From the IMG/VR virus record IMGVR_UViG_3300006224_000021, positions 1 through 37,459 of that record: 37,459 nucleotides of DNA, one strand, 5' to 3'. The notes beneath the pieces are model-generated. The model saw only the letters and a list, made by a program, of their open reading frames with translations. It was not told where the DNA came from and ran no database searches. The translations under genes were made by a program, and so were the position numbers. Positions 21,307-36,870 of the stretch are shown here, piece by piece. Position 1 is the stretch's first letter. Every line of letters begins with the position of its first letter. The stretch is from a virus.

Positions 21307-21759
21307 ATGGAAAAATCATTAAACGCTTTAAGGAGTGATGTTAAGAGGCAACAGTGTAAGGAAAATATTAATATAATTACTAACGGCTTATCAACAGAAG
21401 AATTGTTTTGTTTGTTACCAGGAGAAATACAGAATCCTTTAACACAAAAAACGTATTCATTACGGATAGATAGAATGCCTAAAAACCAGTTATTTTCTAA
21501 AATCAAAAATGTACCAGCATTTTATTGGTATGTTTGCTACGTTAGAGATCCATACGATATTCCTACATCAATGTTGTCATATGTCCTAATGGGATTTTCC
21601 CCACCGTCAGATACGATGGCTGAAACTCTTAATGAAGCATTAAAAAATTGTCTTATTACGTTGATTAAGTATAATCATTATAACGCAGGGATTGACATTG
21701 TTGCAGAAATTGATACAATTAAAAGCAAAAGGAGCAATAATGAATCAACTAAAGAGTAA
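21307..21759 (+). CDS. Hypothetical protein, paralogue of the gene at 22778, 150 aa
   Basis: Shares with the protein at 22778 an N-terminal L-[ST]-x-EELF-x-LLP-x-x-I block and a C-terminal [IL]-[NK]-[ED]-AL-x-x-CLI-type helix (ETLNEALKNCLITLIKYNHYN here). Between them lies an aromatic-rich middle (PAFYWYVCYVRDPYD). I know no function for this family; the pair suggests a duplicated accessory gene. The true start may be 21274 if the in-frame TAG is read through (see that entry). Its end overlaps the next gene. Confidence 0.65.
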   Translation: MEKSLNALRSDVKRQQCKENINIITNGLSTEELFCLLPGEIQNPLTQKTYSLRIDRMPKNQLFSKIKNVPAFYWYVCYVRDPYDIPTSMLSYVLMGFSPPSDTMAETLNEALKNCLITLIKYNHYNAGIDIVAEIDTIKSKRSNNESTKE

Positions 21760-21973
21760 TTATGGGCAAATACTTAGGAATGCACAGTATATTGACAAGA
21801 GCGGCAGATTGCGTACGTCAAAACAGTATAGGAGTAAAGATATTCACAATGCGACTGGATTATCAAGCACAACAATACGGAAAATTCTTAATGGCAGGCA
21901 AGATTGTAACTACAAAGCAATCAATGCCGTGGCGACAGCTCTCAATAAAGACATTAAGGAACTTTATGAATAA
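21740..21973 (+). CDS. Small helix-turn-helix DNA-binding protein, 77 aa
   Basis: The ATG at 21740 has an AAAGGAG site and overlaps the previous stop. The C-terminal half is an XRE/Cro-type helix-turn-helix: RSKDIHNATGLSSTTIRKILNG followed by KAINAVATALNKDIKELYE. It is probably a transcription regulator of this cassette or of the nearby divergent promoters. The last codons, AAG GAA CTT TAT GAA, provide both the ribosome binding site and the ATG of the next gene. Confidence 0.75.
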   Translation: MNQLKSNYGQILRNAQYIDKSGRLRTSKQYRSKDIHNATGLSSTTIRKILNGRQDCNYKAINAVATALNKDIKELYE

Positions 21974-22160
21974 ATCCAAACCTAAACTAAAATTTAAAAA
22001 AGATTCTATCGGTTATTACAATGCAATTCAAGACATTGCAATTGATGTTTTAATCGCAGAAATTTTAAGGCTTTCTGAATATTGCATTAAGACACCATCG
22101 GAGCTTAAGGTTAGTCTTATTAAAAAAATAAAAGAGCTTTATGACCAAACCAAAATTTAA
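21966..22160 (+). CDS. Small hypothetical protein, 64 aa
   Basis: I start it at the ATG inside the preceding HTH gene's end (21966), where AAGGA lies four bases upstream; the longer frame to 21762 runs over that HTH gene and is not credible. The product is helical and basic (NKSKPKLKFKKDSIGYY, IDVLIAEILRLSEYCIK, LIKKIKELYDQ). It ends in the same KELY motif as the two HTH proteins and may be a diverged member that lost its recognition helix. Function unknown. Confidence 0.55.
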   Translation: MNKSKPKLKFKKDSIGYYNAIQDIAIDVLIAEILRLSEYCIKTPSELKVSLIKKIKELYDQTKI

Positions 22161-22353
22161 AAAAGATTACCATAAAATATTACAAAAAGCTCAGTTAAAA
22201 CTTAATATGAGTGCTAAGACAATACATTATAAGACTGGCATATCTTTAAACACTATTCAAAAAGTGCTTGGTGGCGAGACAATTAAACAACAAGATTTAA
22301 TATTAACTGTCGCATCGTCTTTAAATGTGCAAGAAAAGGAACTCTATGAATGA
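22141..22353 (+). CDS. Small XRE-type helix-turn-helix protein, 70 aa
   Basis: Helix-turn-helix of the Cro/CI type with NMSAKTIHYKTGISLNTIQKVLGG as helices 2-3 and LILTVASSLNVQEKELYE after it. It resembles the protein at 21740 in layout and in the KELYE end, so the two are probably duplicates. The start lies inside the previous gene after an AGAG-containing site. It is likely a DNA-binding regulator; the target could be the ATTAATAGA repeats or the leaderless promoter at 21007, which is an inference. Confidence 0.75.
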   Translation: MTKPKFKKDYHKILQKAQLKLNMSAKTIHYKTGISLNTIQKVLGGETIKQQDLILTVASSLNVQEKELYE

Positions 22354-22435
22354 AACATGTGAAAACTGTATTCATTGGCATAACTGCGAGGATAAGGAAA
22401 TTAACGGAACGTGTCCACACATGGAGTTAAAATGA
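22346..22435 (+). CDS. Very small Cys-rich protein, 29 aa
   Basis: Starts inside the end of the HTH gene with AAAAGGA seven bases upstream and ends in an ATGA overlap with the next gene. Its 29 residues include CENCIHWHNC and GTCPH, a compact zinc-binding-like C-x2-C...C...C set. The same Cys/His style occurs in the neighbour at 22432, suggesting related domains. Small but well framed by overlaps on both sides. Confidence 0.5.
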   Translation: MNETCENCIHWHNCEDKEINGTCPHMELK

Positions 22436-22698
22436 AATGTAAAATTAAAAACCCATCTCGTCTAAAATCATTAAGACAACGGAAACATAAAAAAGTTTTT
22501 ACCTGCGAATATCACAATGGTCTTAAAATGATTTGTGGAACTTGCCTACATTACCATCACAACGACGGTTGTTGCCATATATATCCACCAAAACCACATA
22601 AATTATCTCCAAAAACAAAGAAGAATAGGTTTTGTTCTGCTGGTTGGTGGGGTAAAAGTCCTGATATAACAGGCGCTCTTATTAATCTTGCGGTATAG
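22432..22698 (+). CDS. Cys/His-rich protein ending inside the tRNA gene, 88 aa
   Basis: Begins in an ATGA overlap. A basic N-terminus (RLKSLRQRKHKKVF) precedes CGTCLHYHHNDGCCHIYPP and FCSAGWWG, a C-x2-C...CC...C-x3-WW pattern of small phage metal-binding proteins. The stop TAG is formed by bases 8-10 of the tRNA-Gln gene, so the coding sequence and tRNA overlap by ten bases and cannot both mature from one RNA without processing. Function unknown. Confidence 0.6.
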   Translation: MKCKIKNPSRLKSLRQRKHKKVFTCEYHNGLKMICGTCLHYHHNDGCCHIYPPKPHKLSPKTKKNRFCSAGWWGKSPDITGALINLAV

Positions 22699-22763
22699 TC
22701 AAACTGGTAAGACATCGGACTTTGATTCCGACACTGGAGGTTCGAGTCCTTCTACCGCAACCA
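22689..22763 (+). tRNA. tRNA-Gln (anticodon TTG)
   Basis: Full cloverleaf: acceptor TGCGGTA/TACCGCA, D arm GTC...GAC, anticodon stem TCGGA/TCCGA with loop CTTTGAT, variable CACT, T arm GGAGG-TTCGAGT-CCTTC (one G-U pair), discriminator A and an encoded CCA. The U1-A72 first pair agrees with glutamine identity. It reads CAA codons, useful in an AT-rich phage. Confidence 0.92.
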
Positions 22764-22777
22764 ACTAAGGAGAAAAT

Positions 22778-23176
22778 ATGCCATTTTATACTGGAGTAAA
22801 ACATTATTTAGAGTCTTTGACAGTAGAAGAGCTTTTTATACTGTTACCGCAGAAGATAGAAATTAATTTTTCTGTTATACCAGGATATAAAAATAGTAGT
22901 AATTTAATTGAAACTTTTATTCCGCGCATACAACATAAGGTGATAGAAAATGTAACATATTTTCTTGTATCTTATATGAATGTTACAAGAAAGAGTAAGT
23001 ATGGATATACAGAATATCCGTTAAAGAACATAATACCAAAGAAAAGTCGCTATATCATTAAACGTGGTTGCCCATTCATTAATATAACGATAAAAGATGC
23101 ATTAATTACGTGTCTCCTAATACTGCATGAACAGTATTTGATTAACATAAAGTATCAGTTTGAAATTAAAAAATAA
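22778..23176 (+). CDS. Hypothetical protein, paralogue of the gene at 21307, 132 aa
   Basis: An AAGGAG site lies right after the tRNA. The N-terminus LTVEELFILLPQKI and the C-terminal NITIKDALITCLLILHEQYL match the corresponding blocks of the 150-residue protein at 21307; the middle (aromatic, basic, with KYGYTEYPLKNIIPKKSRY) has diverged. No known domain. The two copies flank the HTH and Cys-rich genes, so the unit may have spread by duplication. Confidence 0.65.
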   Translation: MPFYTGVKHYLESLTVEELFILLPQKIEINFSVIPGYKNSSNLIETFIPRIQHKVIENVTYFLVSYMNVTRKSKYGYTEYPLKNIIPKKSRYIIKRGCPFINITIKDALITCLLILHEQYLINIKYQFEIKK

Positions 23177-23182
23177 ACTTCT

Positions 23183-23258
23183 TGCTGATTAGCTCAATGG
23201 ATAGAGCAGTTGCCTTATAAGCGAAATATTTGTGGTTCTATTCCACTATCCGCAACCA
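23183..23258 (+). tRNA. tRNA-Ile (anticodon TAT), slightly irregular
   Basis: Acceptor TGCTGAT/ATCCGCA with one T-C mismatch, D arm GCTC...GAGC, anticodon stem GTTGC/GCGAA with a G-A mismatch and loop CTTATAA, T arm TGTGG-TTCTATT-CCACT with a T-T end, discriminator A, encoded CCA. The anticodon TAT would read ATA, a frequent codon here. Three mismatches and a pyrimidine at T-loop position 57 suggest decay or a relaxed structure. Confidence 0.75.
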
Positions 23259-28369: not shown

Positions 28370-28385
28370 AATTAATTATAGCGAA

Positions 28386-28407
28386 AAACGTCAAATATTT
28401 GACGTTT
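28386..28407. promoter_or_regulatory. Perfect 22-base palindrome, probable operator
   Basis: AAACGTCAAAT is followed directly by its reverse complement ATTTGACGTTT. It opens a compact regulatory stretch (28370-28505) with no gene. Its TTTGACGT arm also forms the -35 of the candidate late promoter at 20918-20946. Size and symmetry fit a repressor or activator site. Confidence 0.6.
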
Positions 28408-28455
28408 CTACAAAATTGTAGAATTTTATATGAGCAGTTTCTACAAAATTGTAGA
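28404..28455 (+). repeat. Pair of 19-bp hairpin repeats resembling Cas12a crRNA repeats
   Basis: GTTTCTACAAAATTGTAGA occurs at 28404-28422 and 28437-28455, spaced 33 bases apart with a 14-base gap. Each forms a TCTAC/GTAGA stem; the second continues with T, giving TTTCTAC-AAAATT-GTAGAT, very close to the mature type V-A repeat (TTTCTAC-loop-GTAGAT) but with a six-base loop. No cas gene is present. Both an anti-CRISPR decoy RNA and a plain double operator spaced three helical turns apart fit. Confidence 0.6.
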
Positions 28456-28464
28456 TTAGTATAG

Positions 28465-28494
28465 TTATTAACATTTTATTAACAGTTTATTAAC
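28465..28494 (+). repeat. Three TTATTAAC iterons, 11 bp period
   Basis: TTATTAAC starts at 28465, 28476 and 28487, one copy per helical turn. They lie just after the two hairpin repeats and before the ribosome binding site of the next gene. This spacing is typical of iterons or cooperative operators, including AT-rich unwinding elements near origins. Confidence 0.55.
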
Positions 28495-28505
28495 GGCGGT
28501 GATTT

Positions 28506-28592
28506 ATGAGATTAAGGAATGATACAAAACTTTATTATATTAGACTAATATTAAATGACCTAAAGAGGTTATTTAAGAGGAGAAGAGTATGA
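28506..28592 (+). CDS. Very small basic peptide, 28 aa
   Basis: Starts after GGCGGTG and ends in an ATGA overlap with the next gene. Rich in Arg, Lys and Leu (MRLRNDTKLYYIRLILN... ending KRRRV). Its end carries AAGAGGAGAAGAG, the ribosome binding site of the following gene. May be a leader or a nucleic-acid-binding peptide. Confidence 0.45.
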   Translation: MRLRNDTKLYYIRLILNDLKRLFKRRRV

Positions 28593-28921
28593 AATACGGC
28601 AAAATTAAAAAAAATGATATGGTAAAAATTTGTTCCAGTGAGATAAGGAATCACAATGATATAGCCCAAGATAGCGATGTTAATAATGTCAGAAGACACA
28701 ACTATTATAGTGAAATTATAAATTTATTGGCTCATATTAATGCCAGAAAGACTATGTATAAAAATAAACTTCTAACTGAAACAGAAGAAAACTGGATACT
28801 CCTATTAGATAAAGCTATTAGTGATTTAGATGAGCTTTCCAATACAATAATAAATACAATGTCTTCTAAAATTGATGAGCTTGAGAATAAACATAGTATG
28901 TTGTTAAGGAGGTATTTATGA
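28589..28921 (+). CDS. Early coiled-coil hypothetical protein, 110 aa
   Basis: Strong AAGAGGAG site within the preceding gene. The C-terminal two thirds are helical and charged (HYN...INLLAHINARKTMYKNKLLTE, LLDKAISDLDELSNTI, KIDELENKHSMLLRR) and probably form a coiled coil. No family recognised. Coupled by an ATGA overlap to the zinc-finger-like gene that follows. Confidence 0.65.
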   Translation: MKYGKIKKNDMVKICSSEIRNHNDIAQDSDVNNVRRHNYYSEIINLLAHINARKTMYKNKLLTETEENWILLLDKAISDLDELSNTIINTMSSKIDELENKHSMLLRRYL

Positions 28922-29148: not shown

Positions 29149-29270
29149 TATAAGAAAATATGCTGGTTATGGAGAAGAAATTAGTGTGATTTTTTTCTTA
29201 AAATTTTAGTTAATTTTTTAGTTAATTTTTAGGTAGTTTTTTGCTTATAATTTTTGATTTTTTTTTTACG

Positions 29271-29343
29271 AATTTGAGTGTATTTTGGAGAATTGTAATT
29301 AAAACATCAAAATATGGTAAAAACTAACCATAACGCTCAAATT
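29271..29343. repeat. Nested inverted repeat
   Basis: Outer arms AATTTGAGTGT (29271-29281) and ACGCTCAAATT (29333-29343) pair in 10 of 11 positions with one G-U in RNA. An inner TATGGT/ACCATA stem (29313-29332) lies inside. The outer arms contain the TTTGAGYGT motif also present twice at 26.4-26.5 kb. Confidence 0.6.
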
Positions 29344-29524
29344 TAAGTTATTTTTAAAAACTAATAGCTGTATAAGGGTTACCTTAAAATCTTTCATTTT
29401 AGACATACTACGTTTTGTTTTTTAGGTAATTCATAGTTTGGTTTTGGTAGTTTTTTAACGCTTTTTTCTTTTTTTGTTTGTTTTTTTTCTTTGTATTGGA
29501 AATGGTAATGGAGATTATACGTCA

Positions 29525-29605
29525 CGTTGAAAAATTTCAACGACCGTTGGATTTCGTTCATTGAACGTGGCGTTAACGAAAGTCAACGACCGTTGCGTTT
29601 CGTTG
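29525..29605. repeat. Cluster of CGTTG/CAACG repeats
   Basis: Within 81 bases the pentamer CGTTG or its complement occurs six times, partly as palindromes: CGTTGAAA-AA-TTTCAACG (29525-29542), CAACGACCGTTG at 29538 and again at 29584, and CGTTAACG at 29571. The two CAACGACCGTTG copies are 46 bases apart and both are followed by a TTTCGTT element. Two more CGTTG copies come at 29815 and 29825. Confidence 0.75.
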
Positions 29606-29660
29606 GAATGTTGAATAGTTTTAATAAGTTGTAAGACCAAAAGTGCTTATTTTTACAAGT

Positions 29661-29687
29661 GGGGGGGGTAGGTAAAGTGGGGGGGGG
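29661..29687 (+). repeat. Paired G8 and G9 tracts
   Basis: Eight G at 29661-29668 and nine G at 29679-29687 occur in the repeated context AAGTG(n)TAG. Such runs are exceptional in this AT-rich DNA. Together they can supply the four G runs of a quadruplex. Homopolymer length may be uncertain. Confidence 0.7.
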
Positions 29688-29856
29688 TAGTGTTTTTTTT
29701 GATTAAAATTAAGGTAAAAAAACAACACTGCCTCCTCGCCGAGTAAGGTACTTTTTTTATGCTCTTCAGGGGAGAGCGACCTAAAAACATCAAATTTGAA
29801 CGAAAAGCCGTTTTCGTTGGTTTTCGTTGGAATATTTTTAAAAAAACCTTGTTTTT

Positions 29857-29881
29857 ACCCTCAAAAATAAGGGTGTTTTTT
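29857..29881 (+). terminator. Terminator-like hairpin
   Basis: ACCCT-CAAAAATA-AGGGT followed by GTTTTTT. The stem is only 5 bp, so it would be weak. With no gene upstream for 700 bases, it could end an untranslated RNA made from this region. Confidence 0.4.
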
Positions 29882-29909
29882 GAGTACTTTTTGAGTAGTT
29901 TTTTGAGTA
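29876..29909 (+). repeat. Three TTTTTTGAGTA repeats
   Basis: T5-6 followed by GAGTA occurs three times, spaced 11 and 12 bases. The helical phasing and the site 65 bases before the next gene suggest operators or curved DNA. Confidence 0.55.
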
Positions 29910-29973
29910 TAAATTTGACTATAAAACCGACCTAAAAAATGGTACGGAATTTAAGATAAAAAGTAGACTAAAA

Positions 29974-32210: not shown

Positions 32211-33020
32211 CTATGATTTTTTTACTGGTTCTACCTCTGATTGTTCGGAGGTAGTCTGGGCGATTTGTTCCATCGTTTCACGCTCTTTGACTTTAAAAAA
32301 TACATCAACGACATTTGGTTCGTTGATACCAAGAGACCTTTGCTGATTATATATCTCTTGGATTTTCTCTATTGCTTTCAAGTGGATAGACGTTTCATCT
32401 TTGACATTCAAGTCCATATTTTGTTTAAACTCTGGGTCAATATGTTTTAGAGTGTCAATAACGGCCTTGCCGTCCACTTCAATGTGCTCAATCGGGCTGT
32501 TTGGGTCAGGCACTATTTTATACTTCTTGGTAACCTCGTCTTGAATGAGCTTGCCTCGTGTAAAAGTAAAATAGCCATCAGGATTTGTGATTTTTGACAA
32601 GGATTTATAACATTGGTTTTTTAAAAAATCCTTACAATATTCAAACCTTGCGGATTGTTTTGGATGTGATGAGCAGAAGTTTCTATAAGTTGGATATGAT
32701 ACATCTACCATAAGTAAAGCTTGTGTTAGAGGCATTCTATCCTTTAAATAACCTTCTAACGCAGTTATAACGTCTTGGTTCATTTTAGAGGACTTATATG
32801 GCTTCTCTCGGTCAATAGAATATTTACGTTTTCTAAGAGTCTTTTTCTTACCAGGACGCTTCTTTTTTGAAGGAAAAACTCGTCTTTTTTTGCTTGTTCT
32901 GTAGGTCCCCTTTCGAGAGTAAGGCGATGGCTTTTTTTTAGGTTCTATTGATTCTATTGGAGACGGTATCGTGATTGAAACTGGAGTTGGTTCTGTTTTT
33001 GGTTCTATTATGGTTCCCAT
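32211..33020 (-). CDS. Probable terminase small subunit, 269 aa
   Basis: The first 75 residues are a low-complexity basic arm (KKKPSPYSRKG, PSKKKRPGKKKTLRKRK). A helix-turn-helix follows, PLTQALLMVDVSYPTYRNFCSSHP, as in small terminase DNA-binding domains, then a helical oligomer region and an acidic tail (EQSEVEPVKKS). Function is inferred from this layout and the missing small subunit elsewhere. GAGGATGG within the end of the upstream gene provides the ribosome site, and the two overlap by 13 bases. A general DNA-binding protein is the alternative. Confidence 0.55.
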   Translation of the reverse strand: MGTIIEPKTEPTPVSITIPSPIESIEPKKKPSPYSRKGTYRTSKKRRVFPSKKKRPGKKKTLRKRKYSIDREKPYKSSKMNQDVITALEGYLKDRMPLTQALLMVDVSYPTYRNFCSSHPKQSARFEYCKDFLKNQCYKSLSKITNPDGYFTFTRGKLIQDEVTKKYKIVPDPNSPIEHIEVDGKAVIDTLKHIDPEFKQNMDLNVKDETSIHLKAIEKIQEIYNQQRSLGINEPNVVDVFFKVKERETMEQIAQTTSEQSEVEPVKKS

Positions 33021-34258
33021 TCAAGACCATCCTCTCTGACTGGAGTGTTTTTAGTAAAATCTACGTACCTTTTTAAGATAAGGTCGCAATATTTAGGGGT
33101 AAATTCCATACAAAAACATTGCTGGTCTGACCTTTCGCATGCGATAATAGTGCTACCAGAACCAGCGAAAAGGTCAACTACAATGTCATTTTTCTTTGAG
33201 TATCGCTCTAAAATATCAATTAAAAGTTTAACTGGTTTCTGGTTAGGGTGCACTCGCTTATGGATATCTTCGGCTTTGTTTTCAGTGCCCATCATACCAA
33301 ACCATCTATGTCGTAATATGATGCGGGCGTGAGTATGTTTTGACCATATAGTTTCAAACTCAGATAGTGAGAACTCAACGTCTTCAATGCCTGCACGCTT
33401 ATCCCAGATGAGCCATGTGCCGTCATTTTTTTTAGGCAACCGCTCTGCGTAATAGTCTGCACCAAAGAGGAAAATCTCTTTGCAGTACGGAAAGTCTCGG
33501 AAGATATGACTCGGGTCGTAATCTTTGTCATCGTTGAGAACAGCATCATAATTTTTCCGGACGCATGACTTTAGGTCTTTATTTTTATTAGTTTTGGACT
33601 TGTAACCAAAGTCGGTAAAGTCAGTATTTAGGTTCATGCCGTAAGGAGGATCCGTTATAATAAAGTTAGCTTTTTTGCCGTCCATAAGACGTTCAATATT
33701 TATTGGGTCGGTGGAGTCGCCGCACAATAGACGGTGCTTCCCTAAAATCCAGAGGTCCCCTGGTTGTGTGATAGGTTTGGAGTCGTCTATGATAGGAGCG
33801 GAATCGGCTTTTTCTTGGTCATTATCAACATCTATGTCGGTTTCCTGAGTAATTGGTTCATAAATTGACAACTCAATCATATCGCTGATTTGGTCATACT
33901 CTATAGAGTTGTCAAGAACGAACTCGTTAAGTCCTTCTTGAGTTATCTTTTGGTAACTTGAGTTGATAGAGAGAAGGATTGTAGCGGCTTCCTTTTTATT
34001 CTTGGCTTCAATGTCAACTACTGGTAAATCTCCGATAGTGTAACCTTCATTGATAAGTTCGGTCAGTGCTTTAAGACGACCGTGCCCGTCAAGGATTTCT
34101 TTACCGTTCCAGACAAAGATGGGTGCAACAAATCCGTTTTGTTTGATATTATCTTTAAGTTTCTGTATATTGGTTGCAACCTTGAGGTTCTTTTGGAATG
34201 GTAGCAGTTCTTTGTAGCTTACGGTTCTTGAGCCAGTACATTTAATAGGTATTAACAT
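33008..34258 (-). CDS. ParB/sulfiredoxin-like domain fused to a DNA methyltransferase, 416 aa
   Basis: Start set at the ATG 34258, six bases after a perfect -10 box; the alternative at 34303 lies inside the promoter. Residues about 11-110 form a ParB/Srx-like domain (NIQKLKDNIKQNGFVAPIFVW, EILDGHGRLKAL). From about 165 the methyltransferase follows: motif IV DPPYG at 203-207, and motif I VDLFAGSGST at 361-370, preceded by HPNQKPVKLL, the order of N6-adenine/N4-cytosine beta-class enzymes. Both parts are typical of phage ParB-methylase fusions, which protect DNA against host restriction or mark it for replication/packaging. It is translated with the putative small terminase. Confidence 0.9.
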   Translation of the reverse strand: MLIPIKCTGSRTVSYKELLPFQKNLKVATNIQKLKDNIKQNGFVAPIFVWNGKEILDGHGRLKALTELINEGYTIGDLPVVDIEAKNKKEAATILLSINSSYQKITQEGLNEFVLDNSIEYDQISDMIELSIYEPITQETDIDVDNDQEKADSAPIIDDSKPITQPGDLWILGKHRLLCGDSTDPINIERLMDGKKANFIITDPPYGMNLNTDFTDFGYKSKTNKNKDLKSCVRKNYDAVLNDDKDYDPSHIFRDFPYCKEIFLFGADYYAERLPKKNDGTWLIWDKRAGIEDVEFSLSEFETIWSKHTHARIILRHRWFGMMGTENKAEDIHKRVHPNQKPVKLLIDILERYSKKNDIVVDLFAGSGSTIIACERSDQQCFCMEFTPKYCDLILKRYVDFTKNTPVREDGLEWEP

Positions 34259-34264
34259 ACGATA

Positions 34265-34293
34265 ATTATACAACCGATTGATATGGTTGTCAA
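34265..34293 (-). promoter_or_regulatory. Perfect sigma70 promoter with an operator in its spacer
   Basis: Reverse-strand TTGACA (34288-34293), 17-base spacer, TATAAT (34265-34270): full consensus. The -10 box is six bases before the ATG at 34258, giving a leaderless mRNA. The spacer contains ACAACC-9-GGTTGT (34270-34290), a likely repressor site. Confidence 0.85.
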
Positions 34294-34295
34294 TA

Positions 34296-34318
34296 TAAAA
34301 CAAAAAGGAGGAATAATG
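34296..34318 (+). repeat. Duplicated ribosome binding site leader, copy 1
   Basis: The 23 bases containing AAAACAAAAAGGAGGAATAA and the start codon before the gene at 34316 recur exactly at 34600-34622 before the next gene. They contain a perfect AAGGAGG site. The duplication may reflect a past gene duplication or selection for strong translation. Confidence 0.7.
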
Positions 34319-35728: not shown

Positions 35729-36556
35729 ATGTTATTAATAAAAGAAATAAAAATAGAAGGTGATGTTATGTATAATGAAGACGTAACATTTATAGAAGAT
35801 GTTGAGATTACAGGAAGTTTAACCGTAAATGGAAACTTAATAGCAGAAAAATCCATTTATGTACACAAAGACTATACTGTATCTAAAAACGACAATGTCG
35901 GCGGGTCTCAAGAGGTCGTCGGGGATCAAAATGTCGGCGGGGATCAAGAGGTCGGCGGGTATCAAGAGGTCAGCGGGTATCAAAAGGTCGGCGGGTATCA
36001 AAAGGTCGGCTGGAATCAAAAGGTCGGAGGATCTCAAGAGGTCGGCGGGTATCAAGAGGTCAGCGGGTATCAAAAGGTCGGCGAGTATCAAGAGGTCGGT
36101 GGGTATCAAGAGGTCGGCGGGTCTCAAAATGTCGGCTGGTATCAAAAGGTCGTCGGGTATCAAGATGTCGGCGGGGATCAAGAGGTCGGCGGGTCTCAAA
36201 AGGTCGGCGAGTATCAAAATGTCGGCGGGTATCAAAAGGTCGGAGGATCTCAAGAGGTCGGCGGGTATCAAGAGGTCGGCGAGTATCAAAACTCTTCGTT
36301 CAAGTTGTTAGACCTAACAAAGATAAAAACTCCTCGTATTGTATTTACGAGTTCATATTATCACGAGCGTAATTTTTGGGTATCCATATTAAGTTCTTCT
36401 CAAAAAAGGGAGCTAACTATCCTAATAGAGACCATTGAAAACAAAAACAACTGTTGGGATAAAATAATTGTAGAAGCCAAGAAGGTATTGAATATACTTC
36501 TTGAATTACCGTTATCGCCTGCTATACATCAGGCGATAGAGGTAATAGTAAAATAA
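35729..36556 (+). CDS. Repeat protein with 22 hexapeptide repeats, 275 aa
   Basis: The N-terminus (DVMYNEDVTFIEDVEITGSLTVNGNLIAEKSI) looks like a short beta-helix of the polymer-forming type. Residues 56-187 are 22 tandem hexapeptides of consensus [EKN]-V-G-G-[YSD]-Q. The C-terminal 88 residues form a different, mostly helical domain (YYHERNFWVSILSSSQKRE, ENKNNCWDKIIVEAKKVLN). Regular V-G-G-x-Q turns suggest a solenoid built from six-residue rungs, like bactofilin or trimeric LbetaH folds. Two starts are possible: 35729 with AAAAGGAG and 35768 with AAGGTGA. Function unknown. Confidence 0.75.
   Translation: MLLIKEIKIEGDVMYNEDVTFIEDVEITGSLTVNGNLIAEKSIYVHKDYTVSKNDNVGGSQEVVGDQNVGGDQEVGGYQEVSGYQKVGGYQKVGWNQKVGGSQEVGGYQEVSGYQKVGEYQEVGGYQEVGGSQNVGWYQKVVGYQDVGGDQEVGGSQKVGEYQNVGGYQKVGGSQEVGGYQEVGEYQNSSFKLLDLTKIKTPRIVFTSSYYHERNFWVSILSSSQKRELTILIETIENKNNCWDKIIVEAKKVLNILLELPLSPAIHQAIEVIVK
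35894..36289 (+). repeat. 22 tandem 18-bp repeats
   Basis: Consensus GTCGGCGGGTATCAAGAG (with variants) repeated 22 times, coding the hexapeptides. Variation is concentrated at the Y/S/D/N codon and at E/K/N, so copies differ mainly where side chains would face outward. Such arrays are prone to copy number change and could be misassembled. Confidence 0.85.
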
Positions 36557-36657: not shown

Positions 36658-36870
36658 ATGGGAAACAAAAAAATACAATTTAAAAAAAGTTATGTAGTTG
36701 TTGTACAAACAGCGATGCTATTACAAAACGAAACAATATCAGAAATAGCGTTTAAGCTTGGATGTTGCAGAGAAACAATAAGAAGGGTCGTTATAGGAAA
36801 AGGTTCTAACAAGTATATAAAGTTAGTTTTAGATTATTTTAAAATTGATGTCAATAAATATTTAAAATAA
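36658..36870 (+). CDS. Small helix-turn-helix protein, 70 aa
   Basis: Strong AAAGGAGGT site. The centre is a helix-turn-helix (ETISEIAFKLGCCRETIRRVVIG) and the rest is basic (KKIQFKKSY) with a short C-terminal helix. Similar in size and style to the HTH proteins at 21740 and 22141. Likely a transcription regulator for nearby early genes; its operator is unknown. Confidence 0.7.
   Translation: MGNKKIQFKKSYVVVVQTAMLLQNETISEIAFKLGCCRETIRRVVIGKGSNKYIKLVLDYFKIDVNKYLK

Follow-up and report, generated by a model that had tools for sequence, protein, structure and literature searches.

Twin palindromes in an intergenic gap of a siphovirus: a probable double operator that resembles a Cas12a handle

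The intergenic gap and its twin repeat

The window analysed here is the whole of virus record IMGVR_UViG_3300006224_000021, a stretch of 37,459 bases from a siphovirus, in which the − strand carries the genes for TerL, portal, scaffold and major head proteins and the + strand a block of small genes. Protein matches of this phage were all below 60% identity and spread across many phyla. A search of viral contigs for relatives by portal, TerL, the DUF932 protein or the 238-aa product of the first + strand block gene found none; nor did the exact 19-mer described below lead to any, and phage records gave no DNA match to 5.5 kb around the site. Judged by the sequences of these four proteins, the siphovirus is an isolated lineage among viral contigs. 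Rfam recognised two tRNAs only in the window. We also noted a protein at 35729–36556 that is built of repeats (e.g. GGYQEVGG/GGSQKVGG), through which a second frame (35859–36311, K-R-S-A-G-I) is open, probably as a mere by-product.

Within the + strand block, two tiny ORFs, both on the + strand, are separated by an intergenic gap of 136 bp (28370–28505). It contains, in this order, a 22-bp palindrome, two copies of a repeat and three iterons. The features of the gap and of the genes that follow it are:

28386–28407, strandless: perfect 22-bp palindrome AAACGTCAAATATTTGACGTTT, the longest perfect palindrome of the window, overlapping copy 1
28404–28422, + strand: copy 1 of the twin repeat, GTTTCTACAAAATTGTAGA, ending in GTAGAA
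28406–28423: DNA palindrome of copy 1, TTCTACAA-AA-TTGTAGAA, proposed operator O1
28437–28456, + strand: copy 2, GTTTCTACAAAATTGTAGAT, whose GTTTCTACAAAATTGTAGA part is 28437–28455, ending in GTAGAT
28440–28455: DNA palindrome of copy 2, TCTACAA-AA-TTGTAGA, proposed operator O2
28438–28465, + strand: weak promoter-like pair TTTCTA-16-TATAGT (8/12), straddling copy 2
28465–28494, + strand: three direct repeats TTATTAAC (iterons) in exact 11-bp steps
28506–28592, + strand: first downstream ORF (28 aa), preceded by a ribosome-site-like stretch, GGCGGTGAT
28589–28921: 110-aa ORF after the 28-aa ORF

A preliminary description of this DNA had reported that GTTTCTACAAAATTGTAGA occurs twice, 33 bases apart, and the two + strand copies indeed have a start-to-start period of 33 (about three helical turns). 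The arrangement is far beyond chance: 19 exact bases are repeated within 100 bp, compared with 10–14 in 20 shuffled windows. Since the pattern TTTCTAC-N6-GTAGA is unique to the two copies (mean 0.01 in dinucleotide shuffles) and the window holds no further TCTACAAAATTGTAGA site even when 3 mismatches are allowed, the observation stands. The reading TTTCTAC-loop-GTAGAT, given for the second copy, is correct for that copy only, because copy 1 ends in GTAGAA.

As DNA, both copies are near-perfect palindromes of the form TCTACA-N4-TGTAGA, with arms of 8 and 7 bp around a 2-bp centre. They were said to sit next to another palindrome and iterons, and this is what we find. The 22-bp palindrome is likely a further protein-binding site (or else a weak terminator hairpin; as RNA it folds with −9.1 kcal/mol). 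The iteron array (1 match against 0.00 expected) ends 11 bases upstream of the start codon. The promoter-like pair falls below the cut-off of the promoter scan and counts as no evidence of function; if it were real, O2 would fill its spacer.

Comparison with Cas12a handles and RNA folding

The core of each copy, TTTCTAC...GTAGA, exactly matches the 5-bp stem of type V-A handles, and the repeats had been put forward as a candidate type V-A RNA anti-CRISPR, the transcribed copies of which would mimic the Cas12a handle and so occupy Cas12a. Three V-A Racrs have experimental support (PMC10651486); the window copies are like these RacrVA elements in the TCTAC/GUAGA stem and in their phage intergenic site. 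We used as a yardstick four type V-A arrays, two of them adjoining Cpf1 genes (G325 and G721) and two found via an unbiased loop-length pattern (G853 and G957). Their handles read AAUUUCUAC-UUGU/UAUU/UGUU/UGUC-GUAGAU at a spacing of 60–67 nt; A(-18), U(-10) and U(-1) are present in all four, and the loop is always 4 nt long. The phage copies, written as RNA, are CGUUUCUAC-AAAAUU-GUAGAA and AGUUUCUAC-AAAAUU-GUAGAU. With G(-18) and A(-10), neither copy has the A(-18)–U(-10) pair that belongs to the Cas12a handle; position −1 is A in copy 1 and U in copy 2.

The handle is reported to be strongly conserved over 28 type V repeats (PMC10200996), and its reverse-Hoogsteen pair, U(-10)/A(-18), to matter for activity (PMC9288538). 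The six-base loop had been flagged as longer than usual, which holds against the 4-nt loops of the yardstick arrays but is not decisive, since MAD7, a Cas12a, tolerated four additional bases in the loop (PMC9288538). Loop length is therefore a smaller problem than the absence of the tertiary pair.

Folding in isolation, each copy forms a hairpin (−4.7 and −5.3 kcal/mol). In transcripts of 53–451 nt, on the other hand, inter-copy pairing has a probability of 0.89–0.99 and the local hairpins reach only 0.01–0.03, because each copy is itself a palindrome; these values come from an equilibrium rather than a co-transcriptional model, and a local hairpin could form transiently during transcription.

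SRUFinder asks for at least 90% identity over at least 90% of a known CRISPR repeat (50–90% for a partial match) and a minimum of 41.1 bits, and it regards a repeat as solitary when 100 bp of flank hold no partial match (PMC10651486). Against the four real V-A repeats, the gap had a top BLAST score of 18.3 bits for the sense strand and 26.3 bits for either, and the identical second copy 33 bp away means that SRUFinder would discard the pair, as two copies within 100 bp. The 19-base TTTCTACAAAATTGTAGAT, which runs from the first to the final T of copy 2, has nine matches in 84,980 species genomes, one per locus and in unrelated phyla, with no array containing it in any of these genomes. Cpf1 matches numbered zero in the nine genomes, as they did in the control genomes of that search. 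PADLOC gave only weak matches on the phage, mainly to HTH proteins.

The proposal of a Cas12a-repeat decoy thus fails on several points: the A(-18)/U(-10) pair is lost, the copies pair with each other and are not solitary, the match falls short of an SRU in both length and score, and the genomes searched contained no array that matches. From RacrVA elements (PMC10651486) the copies differ in the first two of these respects, in having only 19 nt in common and in that no matching host repeat is known. We consider the anti-CRISPR explanation very improbable, and no more credit is due to the idea that the copies form an atypical double RNA decoy of type V-A, able to dispense with the A(-18)/U(-10) pair and aimed at a Cas12a of unseen repeat. 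With this a tempting false lead is removed. The trap is a general one: a DNA palindrome TCTAC-N-GTAGA passes by eye for a Cas12a handle, and for such palindromes one should ask whether A(-18), U(-10) and U(-1) are present, whether the repeat is solitary and whether its copies pair with one another.

The same pairing might act at the RNA level in another way, with the inter-copy and 22-bp hairpins of a read-through transcript serving as a terminator, an attenuator or a signal for processing. A 127-nt region folds better than its shuffles (z −2.7), and TTTTAT follows copy 1. Yet any identical pair of DNA palindromes would fold likewise, which leaves the fold without weight of its own; moreover, the stems are AT-rich and lack a proper U-tract behind them, the terminator scan returned nothing at this region, and no Rfam family covers it. 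We regard such an element as improbable, if somewhat less so than a Cas12a decoy.

Candidate regulators and the double-operator reading

The phage encodes three proteins that are candidates for binding the twin sites:

21740–21973, + strand: Cro/C1-type HTH protein, 77 aa, Pfam HTH_26 at E 4.3e-5 (above cut-off)
22141–22353, + strand: second Cro/C1-type HTH protein, 70 aa, HTH_26 at E 0.008 (below cut-off)
36658–36870, + strand: third HTH protein, 70 aa, with a Cro-like fold

The second is 44% identical to the first. The third, predicted alone, has five helices (pLDDT 87.2), and its fold matches 434 Cro, HipB, SinR and the phi106 repressor with probabilities of 0.96–1.00 and weak E-values of 0.03–0.2. 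None of the three genes adjoins the twin sites, and neither a CI repressor nor an integrase was recognised among the phage proteins scanned. The first two genes lie in a + strand islet (21307–23258) within the − strand structural genes, which also holds tRNA-Gln and tRNA-Ile; two small genes of the islet, 21307–21759 and 22778–23176, have the motif EELF.LLP in common.

The features required by Cas12a are missing and three Cro-like proteins are encoded in the same phage, so palindromic docking sites for a regulator are the most likely reading. The preliminary description had called repressor binding the more conservative explanation, and the palindromy, the adjacent palindrome and iterons and the three HTH proteins all speak for it. 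Two near-identical palindromes in intergenic DNA and Cro/C1-type genes in the same genome are what a double operator calls for; of the promoter overlap also expected, the twin sites show only weak matches. On this sequence evidence, the twin sites are quite probably a double operator for a dimeric HTH protein that controls early genes.

We propose that the + strand gene block may have a compact control region, at the level of DNA, at 28386–28494. The TCTACA-N4-TGTAGA pair would be the double operator, bound most likely by one of the three Cro/C1-type proteins, and binding would switch the downstream genes, from 28506 onward. It might do so by covering a promoter that lies within the sites or immediately after them, or two dimers might cooperate on one face of the DNA; the 22-bp palindrome and the 11-bp iterons could be sites for a second protein. 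Binding by any of the three proteins, a promoter at the site and the direction of regulation are what we infer from this layout. For the phage, it pinpoints a probable control point of early genes together with three candidate regulators.

The main rival to an operator is a site of replication or partition, at which an initiator or centromere-binding protein would bind the palindromes and the 11-bp iterons. Here the exact 11-bp steps of the iterons next to AT-rich palindromes would fit, as would the 800-bp non-coding, repeat-rich region downstream (29149–29973); TTATTAACA resembles a relaxed DnaA box. Against this, the vicinity of the sites showed no recognisable gene for an initiator or a ParA-type protein, the protein with a ParB-like domain (33008–34303) is a DNA methyltransferase fusion, and the position of the iterons, 11 bases before a start codon, is one where regulatory sites of promoters are common too. 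We judge a replication or partition role unlikely, though less so than an RNA-level element.

Two of the regions just named have features of their own. The gene at 33008–34303 lies on the − strand, and the ParB-like domain is N-terminal to the methyltransferase. The region 29149–29973 (about 800 bp) holds no convincing gene and is T-rich; it contains the palindromes CGTTGAAAAATTTCAACG and AACGAAAAGCCGTTTTCGTT, a 45-nt imperfect direct repeat and two G8-type runs, and is possibly an origin or packaging region.

Known operators and the half-site in other viral DNA

The proposed double operator is most readily compared with phage Cro/CI (XRE-family) operators, such as those of 434 and lambda, which it resembles in its short palindromes of fixed spacer, its multi-turn spacing, its place in an intergenic gap and the fact that the genome also encodes Cro/C1-type HTH proteins. 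It differs in that no CI-type repressor is recognised in the window and that the HTH genes are not adjacent to the sites. The half-site TCTACA also differs from those of the 434 and lambda operators. BlaI–MecI operators, which we compared alongside those of CopR–CopY, have TACA/TGTA arms and a 2-bp spacer. Both kinds have these arms in common with the window sites, whereas their spacer is 2 bp rather than 4 bp; the CopR–CopY operator is TACANNTGTA (PMC7253601). No copper or beta-lactam genes were found in the phage, and the literature searched, in the three spellings tried, does not print TACA-N4-TGTA as an operator.

Tandem CTACA-N4-TGTAG sites occur in 15 other stretches of viral contigs. 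In another phage (L030), the DNA between two divergent genes contains a pair of these sites at a distance of 36 bp; one gene encodes HTH_3 and Peptidase_S24 domains (CI-like), the other HTH_3 (Cro-like). This arrangement is a classical switch layout, and the occurrence of the window's half-site pair in such a place adds support to the double-operator reading and to the likeness to Cro/CI operators. A further phage (G001/L003, G001:C1:3239-3318) carries the 16-bp palindrome of the window three times, exactly but in reverse complement, and once more as a variant differing by one base, with spacings of 17, 30 and 17 within a 2.3-kb non-coding region; this phage has one tail-fibre-like protein in common with the phage of the window and is otherwise almost unrelated to it. 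When an arbitrary half-site of equal composition was used as a control, tandem palindromes were found in 10 stretches of viral contigs, compared with 15 for the half-site of the window. Because the control is about as frequent, the common motif alone names no regulator: by this comparison, sites with tandem palindromes are nothing out of the ordinary in phages, and one common regulator is not thereby indicated.

The viral contigs also contain CTACATGGGTGTAG repeated at a strict 23-bp period, in four copies at L026:8071-8153 and again at L029:7966-8002. In both contigs, which are GC-rich and nearly identical in the surrounding sequence, the repeats lie upstream of a − strand gene.
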